Shown: piece after piece, positions 1-6,038 of the stretch
Numbering within the stretch: position 1 is the stretch's first letter
How the letters are laid out: the number at the start of each line of letters is the position of its first letter
NCBI GenBank assembly: GCA_947490035.1
Contig: CANLGS010000288.1
Location: forward strand, 1-6,038
Length of the DNA stretch: 6,038 nucleotides
Direction: 5' to 3'
Origin: Gemmataceae bacterium
Lineage (GTDB): Bacteria; Planctomycetota; Planctomycetia; Gemmatales; Gemmataceae
Program-made: the position numbers and the translations under genes
Notes under the pieces: model-generated
Told to the model about the DNA's origin: nothing
The model's input: the letters and a program-made list of their open reading frames with translations, nothing else
The model's database searches: none

Positions 1-1177
1 GGGGAGAGGGAGAAGACGAAACGCCGCTCATCTCATCCAGTTCCTTCTGCACCTCGTCATACGTGAACCGCTTGCGGTTGCGGATCGCGCCGTTGGCGAA
101 CTCGACGTGCCCCTTCTGCAAGCTCGGCGTGAACTCGATGCGCACCGTCTTCACGTACCGCATCTTGCCCTCTTGCAGCGACGCCAGCCCGTTGGAGATC
201 ACCTCCGGGAACATCGGGATGACCTTCTGCGGCAGGTACACGCTCGTCGCGCGATGCCGTGCTTCGGTGTCGAGCGCACCGCCCGGCTTCACGAACGCAG
301 CCACGTCCGCGATGTGAACCGTCAGCACCCAGTGCTTCGTCTTCGGGTCGATGGCGACGCTGATCGCGTCGTCGAAGTCCTTCGCGTCCGGCGGGTCGAT
401 GGTGATGACTAACTCTTCCGTGAAGTCAGTGCGCTCGAACAGATCGGTTTCCGAGAACTGGCTGGCGACCTGCCGCGCCTCCGCGAGCGCGCTTTCGGGG
501 AAGGCTTCCGGCAACCCGAAGGCGCGGATCACCGAGAGCGTGTCCACACCGGGTTTGCCGTGCGGCCCCAGCACCTCCGTGACGACGCCTTCGCCGCGCG
601 CGTCCGGCGTCGGGAACCGCAGCATCTCGATGACGACCTTGTCTTGCGGCTTCGCGCCCTTCGCGCCGCTGTCGCCGACCGCGATGCTGTGCGTGAACGC
701 GTTGCCATCGACGCGAACGAGTGCTTCGCGGTCGCGTTCAAAGTAAGTACCCACAAAGGTGCGGGTGTTTCGCTCCAGCACGCGGACGATCTCGCCGGCC
801 GCGTCCTTGATGTTGGTCGCTTCGCGCGTGACGCGGACCATCACCTCGTCGCCGGTGGCGGCGTCGAGCGACTTGTCTTCGCGGACGAAGATTTCCGGCT
901 TGAACGTGCCATCGACGGTGTGCGGCCGGACGAACCCGTGCCCGGACGCGCTACGCCGGTAGATGCCGGTGACGGTGCCGTGAACGTCCGCGACGTGGAG
1001 CGTGTTGTTGCGCGCGAGCGTGAGCCGCCCGGTGCGGATGAGTTCGCGCACCGTCTTGCGGAACGCGGGGTAGTCGCCCTCCGGGAGGTTAAGCCGCTTG
1101 AACAGCGGCTTGGCCTTGAGCGGGATGTAGCTCTTCGCGGTGACCGCGTGGAGCACTTTCGCGAGTAGGTCGGGCAT
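1..1177 (-). CDS. rnr: Ribonuclease R (RNB family 3'-5' exoribonuclease), 3' end cut off by window edge
   Basis: Processive hydrolytic 3'-5' exoribonuclease that degrades structured RNA. The 392 visible residues run in family order: an N-terminal winged-helix-like segment (about 15-65), a first cold-shock/OB domain (about 66-135, with GTVTGIYRR and GHGFVRP), a second OB domain (about 140-205), then the RNB catalytic domain from about 240. The metal-binding signature DPPDAKDFDD is at 261-270; D261, D267, D269 and D270 match the four aspartates of E. coli RNase II (D201, D207, D209, D210). HIADV (288-292), VYLP (313-316) and NGLASL (329-334) also fit RNB. The rest of RNB and the S1 domain lie beyond the edge. 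The ATG at 1177 puts the active site about where it lies in E. coli RNase R (near 272), supporting this start; no clear Shine-Dalgarno precedes it. The last visible residues (GVSSSPSP) are low-complexity and unlike the family. Third in the minus-strand run after DUF393 and YhaM. Confidence 0.95.
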   Translation of the reverse strand, partial: MPDLLAKVLHAVTAKSYIPLKAKPLFKRLNLPEGDYPAFRKTVRELIRTGRLTLARNNTLHVADVHGTVTGIYRRSASGHGFVRPHTVDGTFKPEIFVREDKSLDAATGDEVMVRVTREATNIKDAAGEIVRVLERNTRTFVGTYFERDREALVRVDGNAFTHSIAVGDSGAKGAKPQDKVVIEMLRFPTPDARGEGVVTEVLGPHGKPGVDTLSVIRAFGLPEAFPESALAEARQVASQFSETDLFERTDFTEELVITIDPPDAKDFDDAISVAIDPKTKHWVLTVHIADVAAFVKPGGALDTEARHRATSVYLPQKVIPMFPEVISNGLASLQEGKMRYVKTVRIEFTPSLQKGHVEFANGAIRNRKRFTYDEVQKELDEMSGVSSSPSP

Positions 1178-1192
1178 AGGGTGGTTCAAGAA

Positions 1193-1309
1193 AGAAGAGC
1201 CGCAGATGACGCAGACGGACGCAGATCAAGACAAGAGCAGGATTGTTTTTGAAAGCATTCTGCTTCTTGCCTTTAATCTGCGTCCGTCTGCGTCATCTGC
1301 GGCTCTTCT
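1193..1309. repeat. Long inverted repeat, family A, copy 1
   Basis: The left arm (1193-1226) and right arm (1276-1309) are perfectly complementary over 34 bp, around a 49-nt spacer (1227-1275). The arm is built on CGCAGA units spaced 9-10 bp apart. The spacer is A/purine-rich on the left (AGAGCAG at 1234-1240) and T/pyrimidine-rich on the right (ATTCTGC at 1257-1263), with a partial inner stem (CAAGAGCAG against CTGCTTCTTG, one base bulged). It fills most of the gap between the YhaM stop and the RNase R start, ending 15 nt upstream of the RNase R ATG. Repeat similarity may extend right to about 1324, because a CTTTAATC motif from the spacer edge recurs there across the YhaM stop codon. Short reading frames through it are taken as non-coding. 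Confidence 0.93.
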
Positions 1310-1318
1310 CTTCTGCCT

Positions 1319-2323
1319 TTAATCATAGCCGCCGCCGCCTTCGCCGTAGAGGTCGCCCTGCGGGCCGCCCTTGTAGATGCGGCGGCCCAAGTTGCGGTCG
1401 TACGGCGTCCACGCGCTCGGGTTGTTGCGGTCGTCTTTCAACTCGCGCAGCACCATGTGCATGCGCGTATCCATCAGGTCGATCAGGTGCAACAACATCG
1501 CCTCCGGTGTCATCGGCACCTTCGGACTGCCGTATGCAAGCTCCCCGTGGTGGCTCAGGATCATGTGCTGGATGCGGAGCATCAACTCGCGCGGGAACGG
1601 TTCGCCCGTCAAGTCCGGCACCTTCGCCGCAGTCTCCGCAAGCATCGCCACCGCAATCGGGATGTGGCCCACCAACTGCCCTTCATCCGAGTACCCGAAG
1701 GCGCGGCTGAAGGTCAATTCGCGAGTCTTCCCGGCGTCGTGCAGGAACACGCCGATTAGCACCAAGTCGCGGTCCACACCGGCGTACAGCGGTAGCACCT
1801 TGTCGGCCGCGTCCATCATCGAGAGCGTGTGTTCGAGCAACCCGCCGACGTAGGCGTGGTGCAGCTTCACGCCGGCCGGGCAGGTGGCGAACGCGCGCAT
1901 GAACGCGTCGTCCATCAGGAAGCATTCCGCCAGCGCCCGCAGGTGCGGGTTGCCGAGCCGCAGCAGGTAGTTCCGCAAACGGTCGAGTAACTTCGGGATG
2001 CTCTGTTCGGTCTGCGGCAGGAAATCCGTGAACTCGACCTTCTGCGATTCCACCCGCTCGACCGCGGTGAGGATCACCTGGAGCGCGCCCTGGAACAACT
2101 GCACCTTGCCGGTGGCGTGCAGGAAGTCGCCGGGGTCGAAGCCGCGCGCGATGTTATCGCCCGCGTTCCACATCCGCCCCTGGATGCCGCCGGTGCGGTC
2201 TCGGAGTTCCAGAAGGAGGAAGGGATTGCCGTTCCGGTTCGCGCGGAGTTGCTTGTCGGTGACGAGATACACGTCGTCGAGGTCGTCCCCGTCGCGGAGC
2301 TGTTCGACGAAACGGCGAGCCAT
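1319..2323 (-). CDS. yhaM: YhaM-like 3'-5' exoribonuclease (OB-fold plus HD domain)
   Basis: A 334-residue protein resembling the B. subtilis YhaM family (about 314 aa), which degrades RNA, and also ssDNA, from the 3' end with a metal-dependent HD domain. The N-terminal half (about 15-90) is an OB-fold nucleic-acid-binding domain (YLVTDKQLR, FLLLELRDRTGGIQGRMW, FLHATGKVQLFQGALQV). The HD domain follows, with H165 (GGLLEHT), H195-D196 (FLHDAGK), H220, H258-H259 (LSHHGELAYGSP) and D282/D285 (LIDLMDTRMH). The tail is glycine-rich. I chose the ATG at 2323: YhaM-like sequence begins at once (MARRFVEQL), and the 35 extra residues possible upstream come from the neighbouring inverted repeat. A weak AAGG lies 9 nt before this ATG. 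It follows DUF393 by 117 nt and precedes RNase R by 141 nt; both gaps hold family A repeats. Family is confident; activity is inferred. Confidence 0.87.
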   Translation of the reverse strand: MARRFVEQLRDGDDLDDVYLVTDKQLRANRNGNPFLLLELRDRTGGIQGRMWNAGDNIARGFDPGDFLHATGKVQLFQGALQVILTAVERVESQKVEFTDFLPQTEQSIPKLLDRLRNYLLRLGNPHLRALAECFLMDDAFMRAFATCPAGVKLHHAYVGGLLEHTLSMMDAADKVLPLYAGVDRDLVLIGVFLHDAGKTRELTFSRAFGYSDEGQLVGHIPIAVAMLAETAAKVPDLTGEPFPRELMLRIQHMILSHHGELAYGSPKVPMTPEAMLLHLIDLMDTRMHMVLRELKDDRNNPSAWTPYDRNLGRRIYKGGPQGDLYGEGGGGYD

Positions 2324-2358
2324 TTGGGAAAGCCTTGTCAGGGGATCGAAAACAGCAC

Positions 2359-2483
2359 AAAGGCAGAAGAGCCACAGATGACGCAGAAGAACGCAGATCA
2401 AACCGAAGACAAGATTTGATTCAAACACGGTCTTCTGTCTTTAATCTGCGTTCTTCTGCGTCATCTGCGGCTCTTCTGCCTTT
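2359..2483. repeat. Long inverted repeat, family A, copy 2
   Basis: The left arm (2359-2398) and right arm (2444-2483) are complementary at 39 of 40 positions, around a 45-nt spacer (2399-2443). The sequence is clearly the same family as the copy at 1193-1309. Inside the arm two positions differ between copies, and each change is matched on the opposite arm, so pairing is kept. The spacer holds an 11-bp palindrome (2415-2425), an inner GAAGAC/GTCTTC pair and GTCTTCTGT at 2430-2438. The right arm lies inside the 3' end of the DUF393 gene and supplies its stop codon; the left arm begins 36 bp upstream of the YhaM start. Confidence 0.93.
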
Positions 2484-2932
2484 TCGGTCTTTTGGCTGCG
2501 GGGCTGCAGTTGGCACACGCCGTCTTTACACGGGACCAGATCATAGCGGTTGCGCGCGACCCACAGATAGACCTTGTTGCCCAGCCACGGCACACCGGGA
2601 AGGTACAGCAGCGGCGCGATGGGCAGCGTGAGCGGCAGTCGCCAAGACATCCATCGGAACGCTTTGAACCCCACGAGCGCCCGCGTGCGGTCCGGCGTGA
2701 CCACGTGCATCTCTTCGAGCAATCGCTTGGGATTTAGCGGCTCCTCGCACGGCGGCAGATGAGCGGTATCGCGACAATCCTGGTAGTGCAGGCGCTTCAA
2801 CCAGTCGAGCCGCTTGAGGATGCGCACACCGCGCTGGCACAGCGGGCACATGCCGTCGAACAGCACGACCGCCTTGCCCTTCGCGAGGTCGGCGGCTTCC
2901 GTCGGCGGTTGTGGCGCTTCGGCGATGCTCAT
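2441..2932 (-). CDS. DCC-family (DUF393) thiol-disulfide oxidoreductase-like protein
   Basis: A 163-residue protein of the DUF393 family, named for its DxxCxxC motif. That motif is visible as FDGMCPLC, with D26, C29 and C32, right after a beta strand (KAVVLF), as in thioredoxin-like folds. Further family-like features are a lysine/arginine-rich helix (RGVRILKRLDWLKRL), a hydrophobic, proline-rich segment around 98-118 and a late cysteine pair (C135, C140 in PCKDGVC). Family members are predicted redox proteins; the substrate here is unknown. The ATG at 2932 has GGAG six bases upstream (2942-2939). Residues 151-163 and the stop codon are encoded by the arm of a family A inverted repeat, so the natural C-terminus was probably near residue 146-150 and was extended or replaced by the repeat. 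First gene of the minus-strand run. Confidence 0.85.
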   Translation of the reverse strand: MSIAEAPQPPTEAADLAKGKAVVLFDGMCPLCQRGVRILKRLDWLKRLHYQDCRDTAHLPPCEEPLNPKRLLEEMHVVTPDRTRALVGFKAFRWMSWRLPLTLPIAPLLYLPGVPWLGNKVYLWVARNRYDLVPCKDGVCQLQPRSQKTEKAEEPQMTQKNAD

Positions 2933-2938
2933 GACGCG

Positions 2939-2942
2939 CTCC
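2939..2942 (-). promoter_or_regulatory. Ribosome binding site of the DUF393 gene
   Basis: On the minus strand GGAG lies six bases before the ATG at 2932. It is one of the few clear Shine-Dalgarno sites in the window and fixes this start. Confidence 0.6.
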
Positions 2943-2956
2943 GTGTGGGCGAGGGC

Positions 2957-2962
2957 ATTCTA
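2957..2962 (-). promoter_or_regulatory. Possible -10 box for the DUF393-YhaM-RNase R run
   Basis: The minus strand reads TAGAAT here, 25 bp before the DUF393 ATG, in the divergent intergenic region (2933-3152). It matches 5 of 6 bases of the sigma-70 -10 consensus. I see no convincing -35 hexamer at 16-18 bp, so this is only a candidate. Confidence 0.25.
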
Positions 2963-2999
2963 CCGGAGATACCGCAAGGGCGTGCGAAATCCAACATCG

Positions 3000-3005
3000 T
3001 ACAAT
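3000..3005 (+). promoter_or_regulatory. Possible -10 box for panB
   Basis: TACAAT (5 of 6 to TATAAT) faces panB. A start about 7 bp downstream would place the whole 3017-3137 inverted repeat in the panB leader RNA. No good -35 hexamer is seen at standard spacing. Confidence 0.25.
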
Positions 3006-3016
3006 GGGGCGAGAAG

Positions 3017-3137
3017 AACCCCTCCCCAACCCCTCCCCTAAGAAGGGAGGGGCTTCAGACCAAAGAGAACGCATCGTCTTCTGTTTTTGGTTCTGCTCCC
3101 CCTCCCTTCTTACGGGAGGGGGTTGGGGGGAGAGGTT
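3017..3137. repeat. Long inverted repeat, family B (C/G-run type)
   Basis: The arms pair in blocks: 3039-3052 with 3099-3112 (14 of 14), 3030-3037 with 3114-3121 (8 of 8), 3024-3029 with 3123-3128 (6 of 6, one base bulged), then a weaker outer block. The spacer is 46 nt (3053-3098) and contains GTCTTCTGT at 3076-3084. The left arm starts with an 11-bp tandem unit, ACCCCTCCCC plus one base, at 3018-3028 and 3029-3039. Each arm is also its own small hairpin (stems 3030-3037/3045-3052 and 3098-3106/3114-3122, each with a 7-nt loop), so it can fold as one long stem or two short ones. It fills the divergent gap upstream of panB. Confidence 0.88.
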
Positions 3138-3141
3138 CGCC

Positions 3142-3146
3142 AGGAG
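3142..3146 (+). promoter_or_regulatory. panB ribosome binding site
   Basis: AGGAG lies six bases before the ATG at 3153. It selects that codon over an in-frame ATG at 3087 inside the repeat. Confidence 0.75.
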
Positions 3147-3152
3147 CGCTCC

Positions 3153-3938
3153 ATGCAGATCACGGTCCCCGAGTTCCGCGCGGCGAAGGCGAAGGGCGCG
3201 AAGCTCGCCGTCGTCACGGCTTACGACTACACCTCCGCGCGGCTGTGCGACGAGGCCGGCGTGGACGCCATCCTCGTCGGCGATTCGGTCGGCATGGTGG
3301 TGCAGGGGCACCCGAACTCGCTGCCGGTCACGCTGGCTGAGATGATCTACCACACCAAATGCGTGATGCGCGGCGCGCGCCGCGCGCTCGTCGTGGCCGA
3401 CATGCCGTTCATGACGTATCAGGTGAGCGCGAAGCAGGCGGTGCGGAACGCCGGCCGGCTGATGAAGGAGGCCGGGGCGCACGCGGTCAAGCTCGAAGGC
3501 GGCGTCCGCATGCGGCACGCGATCCGCGCGTGCGTGGACGCCGGCATCCCCGTGATGGCGCACGTCGGGCTAACGCCGCAGTCCGTTCACCAACTCGGCG
3601 GCTTCAAGGTGCAGCGCGACGCAAACGCGCTGCTCGCGGACGTGAAGGCGGTGGAAGAAGCCGGCGCGTTCGCGCTGGTGGTGGAGAGCGTGCCCGCGGA
3701 CCTCGGCGCGAAGCTGACGGCCGCGGTGAGCATCCCCACCATCGGCATCGGCGCGGGCGCCGATTGCGACGGTCAGGTGCTGGTGTTCCACGACCTGCTC
3801 GGGCTGTACCCCGACTTCAAGCCGAAGTTCGCGAAGCGCTACGCCGACCTCGGCACCACCGCGAAAACCGCGATCGAAGCCTACTGCAACGAGGTGCGGG
3901 AGGGGAGCTTCCCGGCCGCGGAACACACCTTTAGGTGA
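3153..3938 (+). CDS. panB: 3-methyl-2-oxobutanoate hydroxymethyltransferase (ketopantoate hydroxymethyltransferase)
   Basis: Cytoplasmic enzyme (EC 2.1.2.11) that transfers a hydroxymethyl group from 5,10-methylenetetrahydrofolate to 2-oxoisovalerate, giving ketopantoate, the first committed step to pantothenate and coenzyme A. The 261 residues match the usual PanB length (E. coli 264). Family landmarks are all present: VTAYDYTSARLCDEAGVD (21-38), LVGDSVGMVVQGH (41-53), VADMPF (81-86), KLEGG (113-117), MAHVGLTPQ (135-143), VVESVP with E178 as the likely catalytic acid, and IPTIGIGAG (194-202). D44, D83 and E115 correspond to the Mg2+ ligands. The start has an AGGAG site six bases upstream and gives the normal PanB N-terminus. 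panC and panD are not in the window. Its stop is followed after 8 nt by a WD40 gene, unlike typical panBC operons. The gene appears intact. Confidence 0.97.
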   Translation: MQITVPEFRAAKAKGAKLAVVTAYDYTSARLCDEAGVDAILVGDSVGMVVQGHPNSLPVTLAEMIYHTKCVMRGARRALVVADMPFMTYQVSAKQAVRNAGRLMKEAGAHAVKLEGGVRMRHAIRACVDAGIPVMAHVGLTPQSVHQLGGFKVQRDANALLADVKAVEEAGAFALVVESVPADLGAKLTAAVSIPTIGIGAGADCDGQVLVFHDLLGLYPDFKPKFAKRYADLGTTAKTAIEAYCNEVREGSFPAAEHTFR

Positions 3939-3943
3939 GGTGA
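3937..3943 (+). promoter_or_regulatory. Ribosome binding site of the first WD40 gene, overlapping the panB stop
   Basis: GAGGTGA begins inside the panB TGA codon and ends 3 nt before the GTG start at 3947. Overlap of a stop codon and the next ribosome binding site suggests translational coupling. Confidence 0.6.
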
Positions 3944-4075
3944 ACTGTGATTGTGTTGACTCACAACCCGGACCCCGTGGACCGTCTCGCGTTCGCCCCG
4001 GTCGGGCCGTTCCTCGCGGCGGGCTACAACGAGCGCTGGTTCGGCATATGGAACATTTCCGAACAGCGCGTCGTC

Positions 4076-4111
4076 TCCGGTTGGTGGTATCGGTCCGGTT
4101 GGTGGTATCGG
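4076..4111 (+). repeat. Perfect 18-bp tandem duplication inside the first WD40 gene
   Basis: TCCGGTTGGTGGTATCGG occurs twice back to back (4076-4093 and 4094-4111) and duplicates SGWWYR in frame in the loop between blades 1 and 2. The copies are identical, so the duplication is probably recent. Confidence 0.95.
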
Positions 4112-4342
4112 TTCGCCGGCGCCCGCCCCGAGTTCCGCTTCCATCCCACTTCGCCACAGGTGCTTTACGCGCGCGAACCCAACGGCGTGTACCACCACGA
4201 CTACACGACCGAAGAGAGTGGCGTGCTGTGCGCTGGAACCGGTTGGGCCGCGAACATCGCCCTCACGCGCGACGCGAAGTGGTTGCTCGTCCGCGAGCGT
4301 GAGAGCCGCGAATTCCGGTTGTTCGACCTCGCGCGCGGGCCG

Positions 4343-4349
4343 AAAAAAA
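4343..4349 (+). other. A7 homopolymer, probable frameshift point in the WD40 gene
   Basis: Seven consecutive A lie where the reading frame of the propeller must change. Removing one A joins LFDLARGPKK to PPIWAVRV and restores continuous coding to the end of blade 7. Nothing here fixes the exact base: the first frame stays plausible for several more residues (TAHLGR). Confidence 0.6.
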
Positions 4350-4889
4350 CCGCCCATTTGGGCCGTTCGGGTGAACCCGCGAAGCACCGCCCGCCTTCGC
4401 GTCTGGCTCGAACTGCTCCCGAACGAAGAACAATTCGTGGTGGTCGAGAACCACTCGAACGACCGAACCCGCGTGGCACTGCGTTCACTCGCGACCGGGG
4501 AAGTGCTCGACTCGGATCGGCTTCACAATCGAAATCGAACAGCGTCGGGCTTGGCCGTATCGCCGGACGGCACTCTCGCGGTAGTGCTGTCGGAAATGTC
4601 TGCGTTCGTCTACAGCACCTCGAAACTCAGACGCACACCGCAAGTCGTCCGGAACGACAACAAGAAGCACTTCACCGCGGTCGCGTTCCACCCGTCGGGG
4701 CGGTTCCTCGCGGCGACCAGCAACGACGAAACCGTGAAGCTGTACGACACCACCACCTGGGAAGTCGCGCGCACCTTCACTTGGGACATCGGGCGGATGC
4801 GGAGCATCGCGTTCTCGCCCGATGGCACGCTCGCGGCGGCGGGCAGCGATAAGGGCAAAGTCGTCGTCTGGGATGTGGACCTTTAGGAA

Positions 4890-4994
4890 CGCGGAATTCG
4901 GAACGCGGAGTGCGGAACTGAAAACGAAAGCAGAGCAGCCGAATTCACTCCGTATTCTGCCTTCCGTTCCGCATTCCGCATTCCACGTTCCGCG
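4890..4994. repeat. Long inverted repeat, family C (heptamer type)
   Basis: The left arm (4890-4918) and right arm (4966-4994) pair at 24 of 29 positions: 7 bp outside, a symmetrical 3x3 mismatch, then 17 of 19. The spacer is 47 nt (4919-4965), with AGAGCAG at 4932-4938 and ATTCTGC at 4954-4960. Each arm is four 7-bp units: GCGGAAT, TCGGAAC, GCGGAGT, GCGGAAC on the left (4891-4918) and GTTCCGC, ATTCCGC, ATTCCAC, GTTCCGC on the right (4966-4993). It fills the gap between the two WD40 genes, 3 bp after the first stop and 14 bp before the next start. Confidence 0.9.
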
Positions 4995-5008: not shown

Positions 5009-5872
5009 ATGCTGATCTGGAAAGCGTACTCGCGGATGATCGACGCGCTGGCGTTCGCCCCGGACGGGGGCGCGCTGGCGCTGGGCGGCTACTACCTCGC
5101 GTGCCGGGTCATCGACCCGGCGACCGGCGCGCGGCGGTGGACCGCCGGCGGCGGCGCGGCGTTCGGGCTGTCGCTCGCGTTCGGGCCGTCCGGCACGGTG
5201 CTGTGCCGCGACGACGGGCTGTCCACGCGGGCCGCGGACACCGGCGCCGAGGTGCGGCGGTGCGGGCAGTGGTGCCGCGCGTTCGCGCCGACCCCCGACG
5301 GACGCACCGTGTACGCCACCGAAAGCGGCGCCCGCGACCTCGTCCGGCGCTACGAACTGGAATCGGGCGAGGCGCGCGGCGAGGTGGAACTGGAGTCCGG
5401 CGCGATCAACCGGCTCGCGGTGTCCCCGGACGGGCGGTTCGTGGCCGCCGTCGGGTGCAAGCGGTTCCACCTGCTCGAAGCCGACACGTTCCGGGTGTGC
5501 GCCGCCGACGCCCACCGGGCGCTCTCGACCGGCGCGTTCGCGCTGGCGTTCAGCCCGGACGGGCGCACGCTGGTCTACTCCGCCGGCCGCGTGCTGTTCG
5601 TGTGGGACGTGCCGTCGGCCCGCGAGGTGGCGCAACTGCAACTCGACTCGAAGCACTTCATGGACGCGGCGTTCACCCCGGACGGGCGCCGGCTGGTGAC
5701 CGTGAGCAAGGAGGGCGCGGCCCGCGTGTGGGACACCGCGACGTGGGCGTGCGAGCGGTCGTTCGAGTGGGACGTGGGTCCGCTGCGCGCGGTGGCGGTG
5801 GCGCCCGACGGCGCCCGCGCCGCGGTCGCCGGCGACGCCGGGCGCGTGGTGGTGTGGGACTTGGACGTGTGA
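5009..5872 (+). CDS. Seven-bladed WD40 beta-propeller protein (intact paralogue)
   Basis: A 287-residue protein made almost entirely of WD40 blades. Seven are recognisable from their inner strand and turn: LAFAPDGGALALGG, LAFGPSGTVLCRDD, FAPTPDGRTVYATE, LAVSPDGRFVAAVG, LAFSPDGRTLVYSA, AAFTPDGRRLVTVS and VAVAPDGARAAVAG; several end in WDV, WDT or WDL. This is enough for one closed propeller. There is no signal peptide, transmembrane segment or enzymatic domain, so a cytoplasmic scaffold role is likely but unproven. It is a clear paralogue of the preceding gene, closest in the last two blades (KHF..AF.P.GR, DT.TW, VVVWD.D). The ATG at 5009 gives the same 13-residue lead before LAFAP as the paralogue; no clear Shine-Dalgarno is seen, and the upstream bases are repeat. 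GC is very high with almost all third positions G or C. An insertion sequence begins about 28 bp after its stop. Confidence 0.88.
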   Translation: MLIWKAYSRMIDALAFAPDGGALALGGYYLACRVIDPATGARRWTAGGGAAFGLSLAFGPSGTVLCRDDGLSTRAADTGAEVRRCGQWCRAFAPTPDGRTVYATESGARDLVRRYELESGEARGEVELESGAINRLAVSPDGRFVAAVGCKRFHLLEADTFRVCAADAHRALSTGAFALAFSPDGRTLVYSAGRVLFVWDVPSAREVAQLQLDSKHFMDAAFTPDGRRLVTVSKEGAARVWDTATWACERSFEWDVGPLRAVAVAPDGARAAVAGDAGRVVVWDLDV

Positions 5873-5976: not shown

Positions 5977-6038
5977 ATGATCGAGGTACAAGACCGGAAT
6001 CGTGTCGCGATGAGTCAGCGTGAGCGTGATGTGCTCAA
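5977..6038 (+). CDS. Transposase N-terminus, probably ISNCY/IS1202-like, partial
   Basis: Only 20 codons are visible (MIEVQDRNRV, AMSQRERDVL). From memory, MSQRERDVL resembles the N-terminus of ISNCY (IS1202-group) transposases, where such a short lead precedes a helix-turn-helix DNA-binding domain and a DDE catalytic core. Neither domain is within the window. The ATG at 5977 has a strong GAGGAGG site at 7 nt; the in-frame ATG at 6010 lacks one. The assignment is tentative because so little protein is seen. Confidence 0.6.
   Translation, partial: MIEVQDRNRVAMSQRERDVL

Follow-up and report, generated by a model that had tools for sequence, protein, structure and literature searches.

Arms of intergenic hairpins in a Gemmata-like bacterium match those of three types of one-gene palindromic elements

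The 6,038-nt stretch of Gemmataceae DNA analysed here (the window) is contig 288 of a 68%-complete, 4.67 Mb assembly of a Gemmata-like host, and carries four long inverted repeats, or hairpins, among genes that include rnr and panB. All four sit between protein genes, not inside a 23S rRNA gene, and the window returned no Rfam matches. The arms of these hairpins match those of three types of small palindromic element, each of which in its full form consists of one small gene (about 100–160 codons) between long inverted arms, and we consider it likely that the four hairpins are gene-less, non-autonomous copies of these elements, which would be moved or copied by the proteins that the full elements encode. 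The features of the window are listed below, with genes called from Pfam matches and, for the DCC1-like gene, also from the list of open reading frames.

1193..1309, element 1: CGCAGAT-type hairpin (arms 1193-1226 and 1276-1309, spacer 1227-1275); likely gene-less GxxExxY-type copy
1227..1275, spacer ("core") of element 1: left part purine-rich, right part pyrimidine-rich
2359..2483, element 2: CGCAGAT-type hairpin (arms 2359-2398 and 2444-2483, spacer 2399-2443); likely gene-less GxxExxY-type copy
3017..3137, element 3: hairpin with CCCCTCCCC-type arms, each arm a hairpin in itself; likely gene-less DUF559-type copy (the weaker case)
4890..4994, element 4: hairpin with GCGGAAT heptamer arms (4890-4918 and 4966-4994); likely gene-less four-helix-bundle (PF05635) copy
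2..1178, minus strand: ribonuclease R-like gene (rnr; RNB, CSD2), truncated by the window start
1319..2324, minus strand: OB-fold / HD-domain protein gene
2441..2932, minus strand: DCC1-like thiol-disulfide oxidoreductase gene, final codons within element 2
3153..3938, plus strand: panB (ketopantoate hydroxymethyltransferase)
5009..5872, plus strand: WD40-repeat protein gene

Element 2 extends into the DCC1-like gene at its 3' end; the minus-strand reading frame of that gene (2441-2932) terminates inside the hairpin. The tail of this gene (..AEEPQMTQKNAD) is read from the element 2 arm (2441-2483), and the hairpin appears to supply both tail and stop codon. Element 3 lies after a conserved TACAAT/TAGAAT box and before the panB start (window 3011-3152). 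A full panB match, at 80–90% identity, is present in 15 of the 18 other genomes placed in the same genus, and the site upstream of it holds, in sister species, a different hairpin, a repetitive extragenic palindrome (REP) or nothing. The outer arms of the 3017-3137 repeat are out of register, with 16 mismatches in 37 positions when these ends are taken, while its inner 23 nt pair without gaps. On reading the sequence by eye, no GTAG-type tag could be seen at the arm termini of any of the four elements.

An earlier note on this DNA had reported inverted repeats at these four places, and they are present at each of them. Such repeats occur far beyond chance: at scores of at least 16 we counted 193 in 649 kb of host sequence against none in one Markov-shuffled copy, with a slightly different finder setting. 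The main census covered the window and 80 of the 754 contigs (1.09 Mb in all; the six longest contigs were trimmed to 20 kb) and yielded 343 inverted repeats, which were divided into two classes by arm words. Class one comprises 92 elements, among them families with arms of tandem 7-nt units (GCGGAAT, GTGAGGA, AAGTCGT, CAGTGTT, GGGCAGT and others), families with units of roughly 9–10 nt (CGCAGAT, CCGCAGAGA, ACGCAAAG, CACAAAAG and ACAGGATTA) and the C/T-rich CCCCTCCCC family. The 251 elements of class two are mainly REP-like doublets.

The arms of elements 1 and 2 are closely matched by an arm from a GxxExxY element that the host genome carries on contig 53 (L053, from 5696), at 33/33 and 34/34 positions for element 1 and at 30/33 and 32/34 for element 2. 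The gene of that element belongs to PF13366 (GxxExxY; TIGR04256; PD-(D/E)XK superfamily) and is enclosed by CGCAGAT arms, and the element is flanked on both sides by gene-less copies. A second GxxExxY gene lies within variant arms on contig 191, and a third at the extreme end of contig 36. The arms of element 4 match, at 25/27 and 23/25 positions, the GCGGAAT arms that enclose a PF05635 gene on contig 79 (L079, 7151-7735), one of six PF05635 matches in this genome; those on contigs 13, 18 and 692 lie within other heptamer arms, and those on contigs 206 and 496 fall outside the fetched set. For element 3, the best counterpart is an arm enclosing a DUF559 (PF04480) gene in sister species G001 (L377), matched at 42/43 positions by the right arm and at 39/43 by the left, and the element 3 arms recur in sister genome G004 (L375).

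This correspondence extends to most of class one. The 92 own-genome elements, whose solo families had been fixed before any genes were found, were compared with a library of 185 gene-enclosing arms (7 of them Y1-enclosing), resulting in 83 assignments, nine unassigned elements and none assigned to the wrong type; own-genome gene-bearing elements are part of the library, and the closest matches are therefore to resident parents. The 9–10-mer families went to GxxExxY in 41 of 43 cases, the 7-mer families to the four-helix bundle in 36 of 43, and the CCCCTCCCC family to DUF559 in all six.

Within the genus, inverted arms enclose the gene at 24 of 30 fetched GxxExxY (PF13366) loci and at 17 of 30 PF05635 loci, compared with none of 30 panB loci and three of 400 random own-genome positions. 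A gapped test of the flanks, restricted to loci with enough flanking sequence, detected enclosure of GxxExxY in 25 of 26, PF05635 in 21 of 26 and DUF559 in 3 of 14 loci, with low-scoring DUF559 (0/10), panB (0/29) and random positions (1/300) as controls and Y1_Tnp at 3/6. GxxExxY loci of the genus carry many arm variants, built of loose 9–10-nt units, while the arms of four-helix-bundle elements repeat a 7-nt unit. The best DUF559 cases have C/T-rich arms that are themselves hairpins; the C/T-rich arm word is found within 700 nt of the locus centre at 18 of 19 DUF559 loci scoring above 100 bits and at none of 11 low-scoring ones, and hairpins of the element 3 type lie 17–29 nt from a DUF559 gene in G008, G010 and G004. 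Among 52 GxxExxY proteins extracted from 60 loci, 51–52 retain the expected active-site D, E and K, and a sequence search at E 0.1 returned no GxxExxY relative in the PDB.

The same association extends well beyond the host lineage. The exact CGCAGAT arm pattern, with 24 fixed bases, is present on at least 114 stretches of species genomes, whose titles, among the matches listed, include Verrucomicrobia, Planctomycetes, gamma- and betaproteobacteria, Nitrospirae, Bacteroidetes, Chloroflexi, Desulfobacterales, Lentisphaerae, Hydrogenedentota, Thermoanaerobaculia and Treponema. Arm pairing was analysed for 161 arm matches on 130 stretches, 16 of them from IMG/VR, with some elements counted on both strands. 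Within 300 nt, 77 matches have an inward-facing partner, three have only an outward-facing one and 81 have none (11 of these near an end); the spacers between paired copies range from 9 to 231 nt, with a median of 72. Seven arm pairs on these stretches, collected without regard to gene content, lie more than 235 nt apart, and five of the seven enclose GxxExxY (TIGR04256). The other two are L183, without a family match, and L298, whose arms are 3.6 kb apart. The stop of the GxxExxY frame falls within the arm in L189 and L264.

In other phyla, arms enclose GxxExxY at 15 of 30 loci (14 of 20 unclipped) and PF05635 at 22 of 30 (20 of 23 unclipped), against three of 231 random positions; the best period of the PF05635 arms is 7 in 16 of the 22. 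PF13366 is present in 35 and PF05635 in 28 (26 over the cut-off) of 40 genomes chosen for the exact arm, compared with three and none of 14 named genomes that served as an unmatched control. The exact CGCAGAT arm also occurs on the 16 IMG/VR stretches (L293-L308), where elements of this type may sit in proviruses or mis-binned contigs. Phages and plasmids as carriers were considered and set aside, one arm-pair query having matched three plasmid records and no phage record. These observations establish the arm identities, the genes that the arms enclose and the recurrence of such loci in many genomes; what is new is the element types themselves.

The earlier note had proposed a different unity, namely one superfamily with a conserved core of about 46 nt and exchangeable arms, served by a single moving enzyme or binding protein. 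Much of what it described is there. The words it quoted occur where it placed them (GTCTTCTGT at 2430 and 3076, AGAGCAG at 1234 and 4932, ATTCTGC at 1257 and 4954), and the purine-left, pyrimidine-right layout of the spacers is real and a property of this hairpin class: it is seen in most class-one families (not in CAGTGTT or AAGTTCC, and barely in TTGGCTG) and is missing from 166 scored spacers of the mainly REP-like class two. Spacers of different arm families also resemble each other more than half-wise shuffles preserving each half's composition, with similarities of 12.0 against 10.0 ± 0.4 for GCGGAAT versus CGCAGAT and 15.3 against 9.6 ± 0.6 for the pooled 9–10-mer families, which share CGCAGAT loop sequence. 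Inward-facing GAAGAC is found in 26 of 77 spacers from 11 families, where 5.3 would be expected, compared with 6 of 142 in the other class.

A common core nevertheless fails on several counts. The near-equal spacers of the window are partly an artefact, as their lengths depend on where the arms are cut (49, 37, 46 and 39 nt with maximal ungapped arms), and the spacers of the 92 class-one elements range from 4 to 146 nt, with quartiles of 22, 41 and 48 and only 17 at 45–49. Of the two outcomes that the earlier note had named as refuting its model, a wide spread of spacer lengths is observed, and a cross-family similarity no higher than in shuffled sequences is not. All matches of an nhmmer profile of the CGCAGAT core at E < 0.1 were to CGCAGAT elements or to the related CACAAAAG and ACGCAAAG elements, apart from one fragment at a contig edge. 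Weaker matches were to a CCGCAGAGA element (E 0.74) and two unclassified places (0.59 and 0.66); up to E = 10, no listed match fell within a GCGGAAT or CCCCTCCCC element. In sister species of the genus the arms are kept and the spacers vary, the reverse of what exchangeable arms around a fixed core would give, and the three arm families lead, unmixed, to three different genes rather than to one enzyme. Purine-rich ends of the same kind are moreover present inside full elements of the genus. What the three families have in common is composition and words alone, a core shared by all of them is not supported, and we dropped the superfamily, which we regard as very improbable, on the spread of spacers and the reach of the core profile. 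One architecture over three unrelated arm families, with the flavour of mobile DNA, does stand, and most likely reflects convergence of three types of one-gene palindromic element.

A second possibility is that all of these hairpins are REPs or bacterial interspersed mosaic elements (BIMEs) moved by REP-associated tyrosine transposases (RAYTs), which carry the Y1_Tnp domain. Y1_Tnp genes are present in 16 of 19 genomes of the genus, and some lie within long inverted arms (the 3/6 of the flank test; L051 163-877 in the host's own genome; L154, L156 and L158). The best match of every window arm is nonetheless an arm of GxxExxY, PF05635 or DUF559, never a Y1-enclosing one, and G008, a single contig, has CGCAGAT hairpins and PF13366 with no Y1_Tnp match. 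The REP-like class of the host is also a separate set with neutral spacers, 78 of 80 sampled from its 251 members matching nothing in the arm library. In view of the arm matches and the distribution of Y1_Tnp, a RAYT as mover was dropped and seems to us extremely improbable.

GTGGCAC-type REP doublets are frequently nested concentrically in other palindromes (L003, L007, L019, L031, L037, L061, L063 and L070). An outer repeat surrounds 16 of 317 candidate inner repeats, compared with 9 of 1504 shifted positions, and in all 16 the junction lies in the spacer; the search was biased against junctions within arms. A preference of newly arriving hairpins for the loops of existing ones is real but dispensable for explaining the window, and was dropped as an explanation.

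The placement of the hairpins bears on a third explanation, in which they are host structures under selection, such as 3'-end hairpins, bidirectional terminators or mRNA stabilisers, and the small genes were trapped between them by chance. With gene positions from a simple purpose-made gene finder, 84 class-one elements lie outside coding regions and contig edges, 65 of them in tandem, 13 in convergent and six in divergent gaps, although divergent gaps account for 34.6 kb of the 168.6 kb of intergenic DNA. In the 65 tandem cases the element begins a median of 7 nt after the upstream stop. This closeness to stops, the avoidance of divergent gaps and the occupation of one intergenic site by different hairpins in different species are all as a host function would have it. 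Ancestrally short gaps, together with avoidance of promoters, can also account for the placement, and chance trapping accounts poorly for a pairing of gene and arm that is specific, with no wrong-type assignment, that recurs across phyla and that extends to reading frames terminating inside an arm. PF13366, PF05635, PF01797 and PF04480 are all without a match in genomes G012 and G017, and 53.5 kb of sequence from these two contains no hairpins; about 4.5 would be expected at the density of G008 (hairpin densities are 6.2 per 20 kb in the host and, per 200 kb, 17 in G008 and 32 in G013). We therefore consider a passenger origin of the genes unlikely.

Signs of movement come from one orthologous site, both flanks of which were found in nine of 12 stretches. 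A full GxxExxY element occupies it in the host, G008 and G010, a gene-less 9–10-mer hairpin in G007, G003 and G006, and nothing in G001 and G017, while G002 has 1.3 kb of other sequence. In G007 and in G003 the hairpin opens with an arm that is also carried by a GxxExxY element of the same species. The host gene at this site is 71–72% identical to the genes of G008, G010 and G013, and its arms differ from those of G010, yet within each element the arms pair at 31 of 33 positions.

Several observations weigh against the reading that we favour, of the hairpins as gene-less copies of such elements. No movement, excision or target duplication was seen, the available strains being too distant for empty sites: precise ones were sought with G008/G013, where about 57 kb could be aligned in 22 pieces, with gaps holding different elements on each side, and exact junctions were given up because the sequences are too diverged. 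For element 3, full enclosure was detected in just three of the 14 testable DUF559 loci, and the host's own 68%-complete genome yielded no DUF559 match above 100 bits. PF05635 proteins have, to our knowledge, no known catalytic activity, so that a self-moving four-helix-bundle element would need a helper. The 9-nt period is the best one in only 7 of 27 and 5 of 15 GxxExxY arms, with none significant in 11 and 5, and an AlphaFold model of GxxExxY from four sequences reached a mean pLDDT (predicted local distance difference test score) of 40 and was not used. Among cross-phylum GxxExxY loci, 10 of 30 are clipped and 6 of the 20 unclipped ones are without arms. In the 18 sister genomes, CGCAGAT hairpins and PF13366 occur together in nine and neither occurs in four, with arms but no PF13366 in one (G006) and PF13366 but no CGCAGAT arms in four; these last four carry other arm variants, and co-occurrence across sister genomes is not by itself a strong correlation.

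The origin of the "core" can be approached from the full elements. Their inner ends are purine-rich inward within the genus, with fractions of 0.63 and 0.71 for GxxExxY (n = 24) against 0.55 at 100–125 nt further in, and of 0.59 and 0.63 for PF05635 (n = 17) against 0.52 deeper; GAAGAC is found at the inner ends of 7/24 and 6/17 elements, respectively. Two such ends facing each other, at about 20–25 nt each, would yield both the purine/pyrimidine layout and the length of about 46 nt, and the "46-nt core" is probably just this, the two subterminal ends of the parent brought face to face without the gene. Two further results count against this account: beyond the genus, the purine richness of the inner ends almost disappears (0.56/0.55 against 0.51), which makes the layout a lineage trait, and solo cores align suggestively but weakly with the ends of the contig-53 element.

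A mechanism consistent with these observations would start from internal loss of the gene, leaving a solo hairpin with its two purine-rich ends as the spacer. The element's own protein would recognise the arms, as hairpin DNA or RNA, and would move or copy full and gene-less copies in trans, much as has been proposed for RAYTs and REPs, with strand cleavage presumably supplied by GxxExxY. Hairpins in transcribed spacers, just past stops or in leaders, might be tolerated because folding or RNase III trimming there would do little harm. Movement of the elements by their own proteins is in our view a well-motivated proposal.

Three features of the window lie apart from the hairpins. The first WD40 gene (3947-4886) has two open frames with a changeover near a run of seven A at 4343-4349, the result of a frameshift or an assembly error, and contains an 18-nt tandem duplication at 4077-4112. 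A reading frame starting at the end of the window (5977-6038; MIEVQDRNRVAMSQRERD..) is possibly the start of a transposase.

These results tie two common small protein families, named by motif or fold alone, to many otherwise unexplained intergenic hairpins. A broader generalisation, to which we would give an even chance, is that GxxExxY and S23-type proteins mobilise two hitherto unrecognised classes of palindromic one-gene element, which have periodic arms and span the bacteria, each protein reading its own arm unit (9–10 or 7 nt), that many of the intergenic hairpins still unexplained in numerous phyla are gene-less copies of these elements, and that the intervening sequences (IVSs) of 23S rRNA are members that landed in rRNA genes. 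If the proteins do move the arms, they would form two more enzyme-repeat systems beside RAYT and REP, one with a nuclease fold that is not normally classed as that of a transposase. The origin of the 23S rRNA IVSs, a long-standing question, would then become directly testable.

Avd is a relative of the four-helix bundle, and short tandem heptamers are familiar from cyanobacteria as STRR (short tandemly repeated repetitive) sequences. A search lying mostly outside the subscription literature found no paper linking GxxExxY, non-rRNA PF05635 or DUF559 to inverted arms; PMC8934634 reports a GxxExxY gene adjoining a reverse transcriptase. Among described systems, the closest to the gene-bearing relatives of element 4, and to these only, is the 23S rRNA IVS, which likewise has a four-helix-bundle gene between inverted repeats. 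In Coxiella burnetii it consists of an S23p (PF05635-type) open reading frame between terminal inverted repeats with a 28-bp stem, is termed a selfish element, is excised from the RNA by RNase III and has been proposed to be of mobile origin, according to the accessible sections of PMC4990558, which describe no GxxExxY or DUF559 version. The elements reported here, in contrast, lie between protein genes, have tandem-heptamer arms and are accompanied by many gene-less hairpin copies.

Intergenic tandem heptamers in distant phyla, with transfer suspected, are also known from the TAACTGA repeats of Beggiatoaceae, cyanobacteria and Bacteroidetes (PMC4679880); unlike the element arms described here, those repeats are mostly direct, with one inverted case, and the terms S23 and four-helix are missing from the main text of that paper. 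In being short and gene-less, with inverted ends related to a gene-bearing parent, the four hairpins resemble miniature inverted-repeat transposable elements (MITEs). MITEs are short gene-less elements derived from insertion sequences. They differ from our elements, whose parent genes are not known transposases, whose arms are internally periodic and at which no target duplication was observed. The class is described in PMC3733652, which also covers REPs, BIMEs and REPINs (REP doublets forming hairpins) with their RAYTs as GTAG-tagged, dispersed extragenic palindromes, with paired spacers mostly of 20–100 bp. The RAYT-REP system shares with ours dispersed extragenic palindromes and a small cognate protein gene. 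The elements described here are set apart from it by proteins of the PD-(D/E)XK-like and four-helix-bundle kinds rather than HUH Y1, by arms of repeated 7–10-nt units with no GTAG tag seen, and by a gene that the arms directly enclose.

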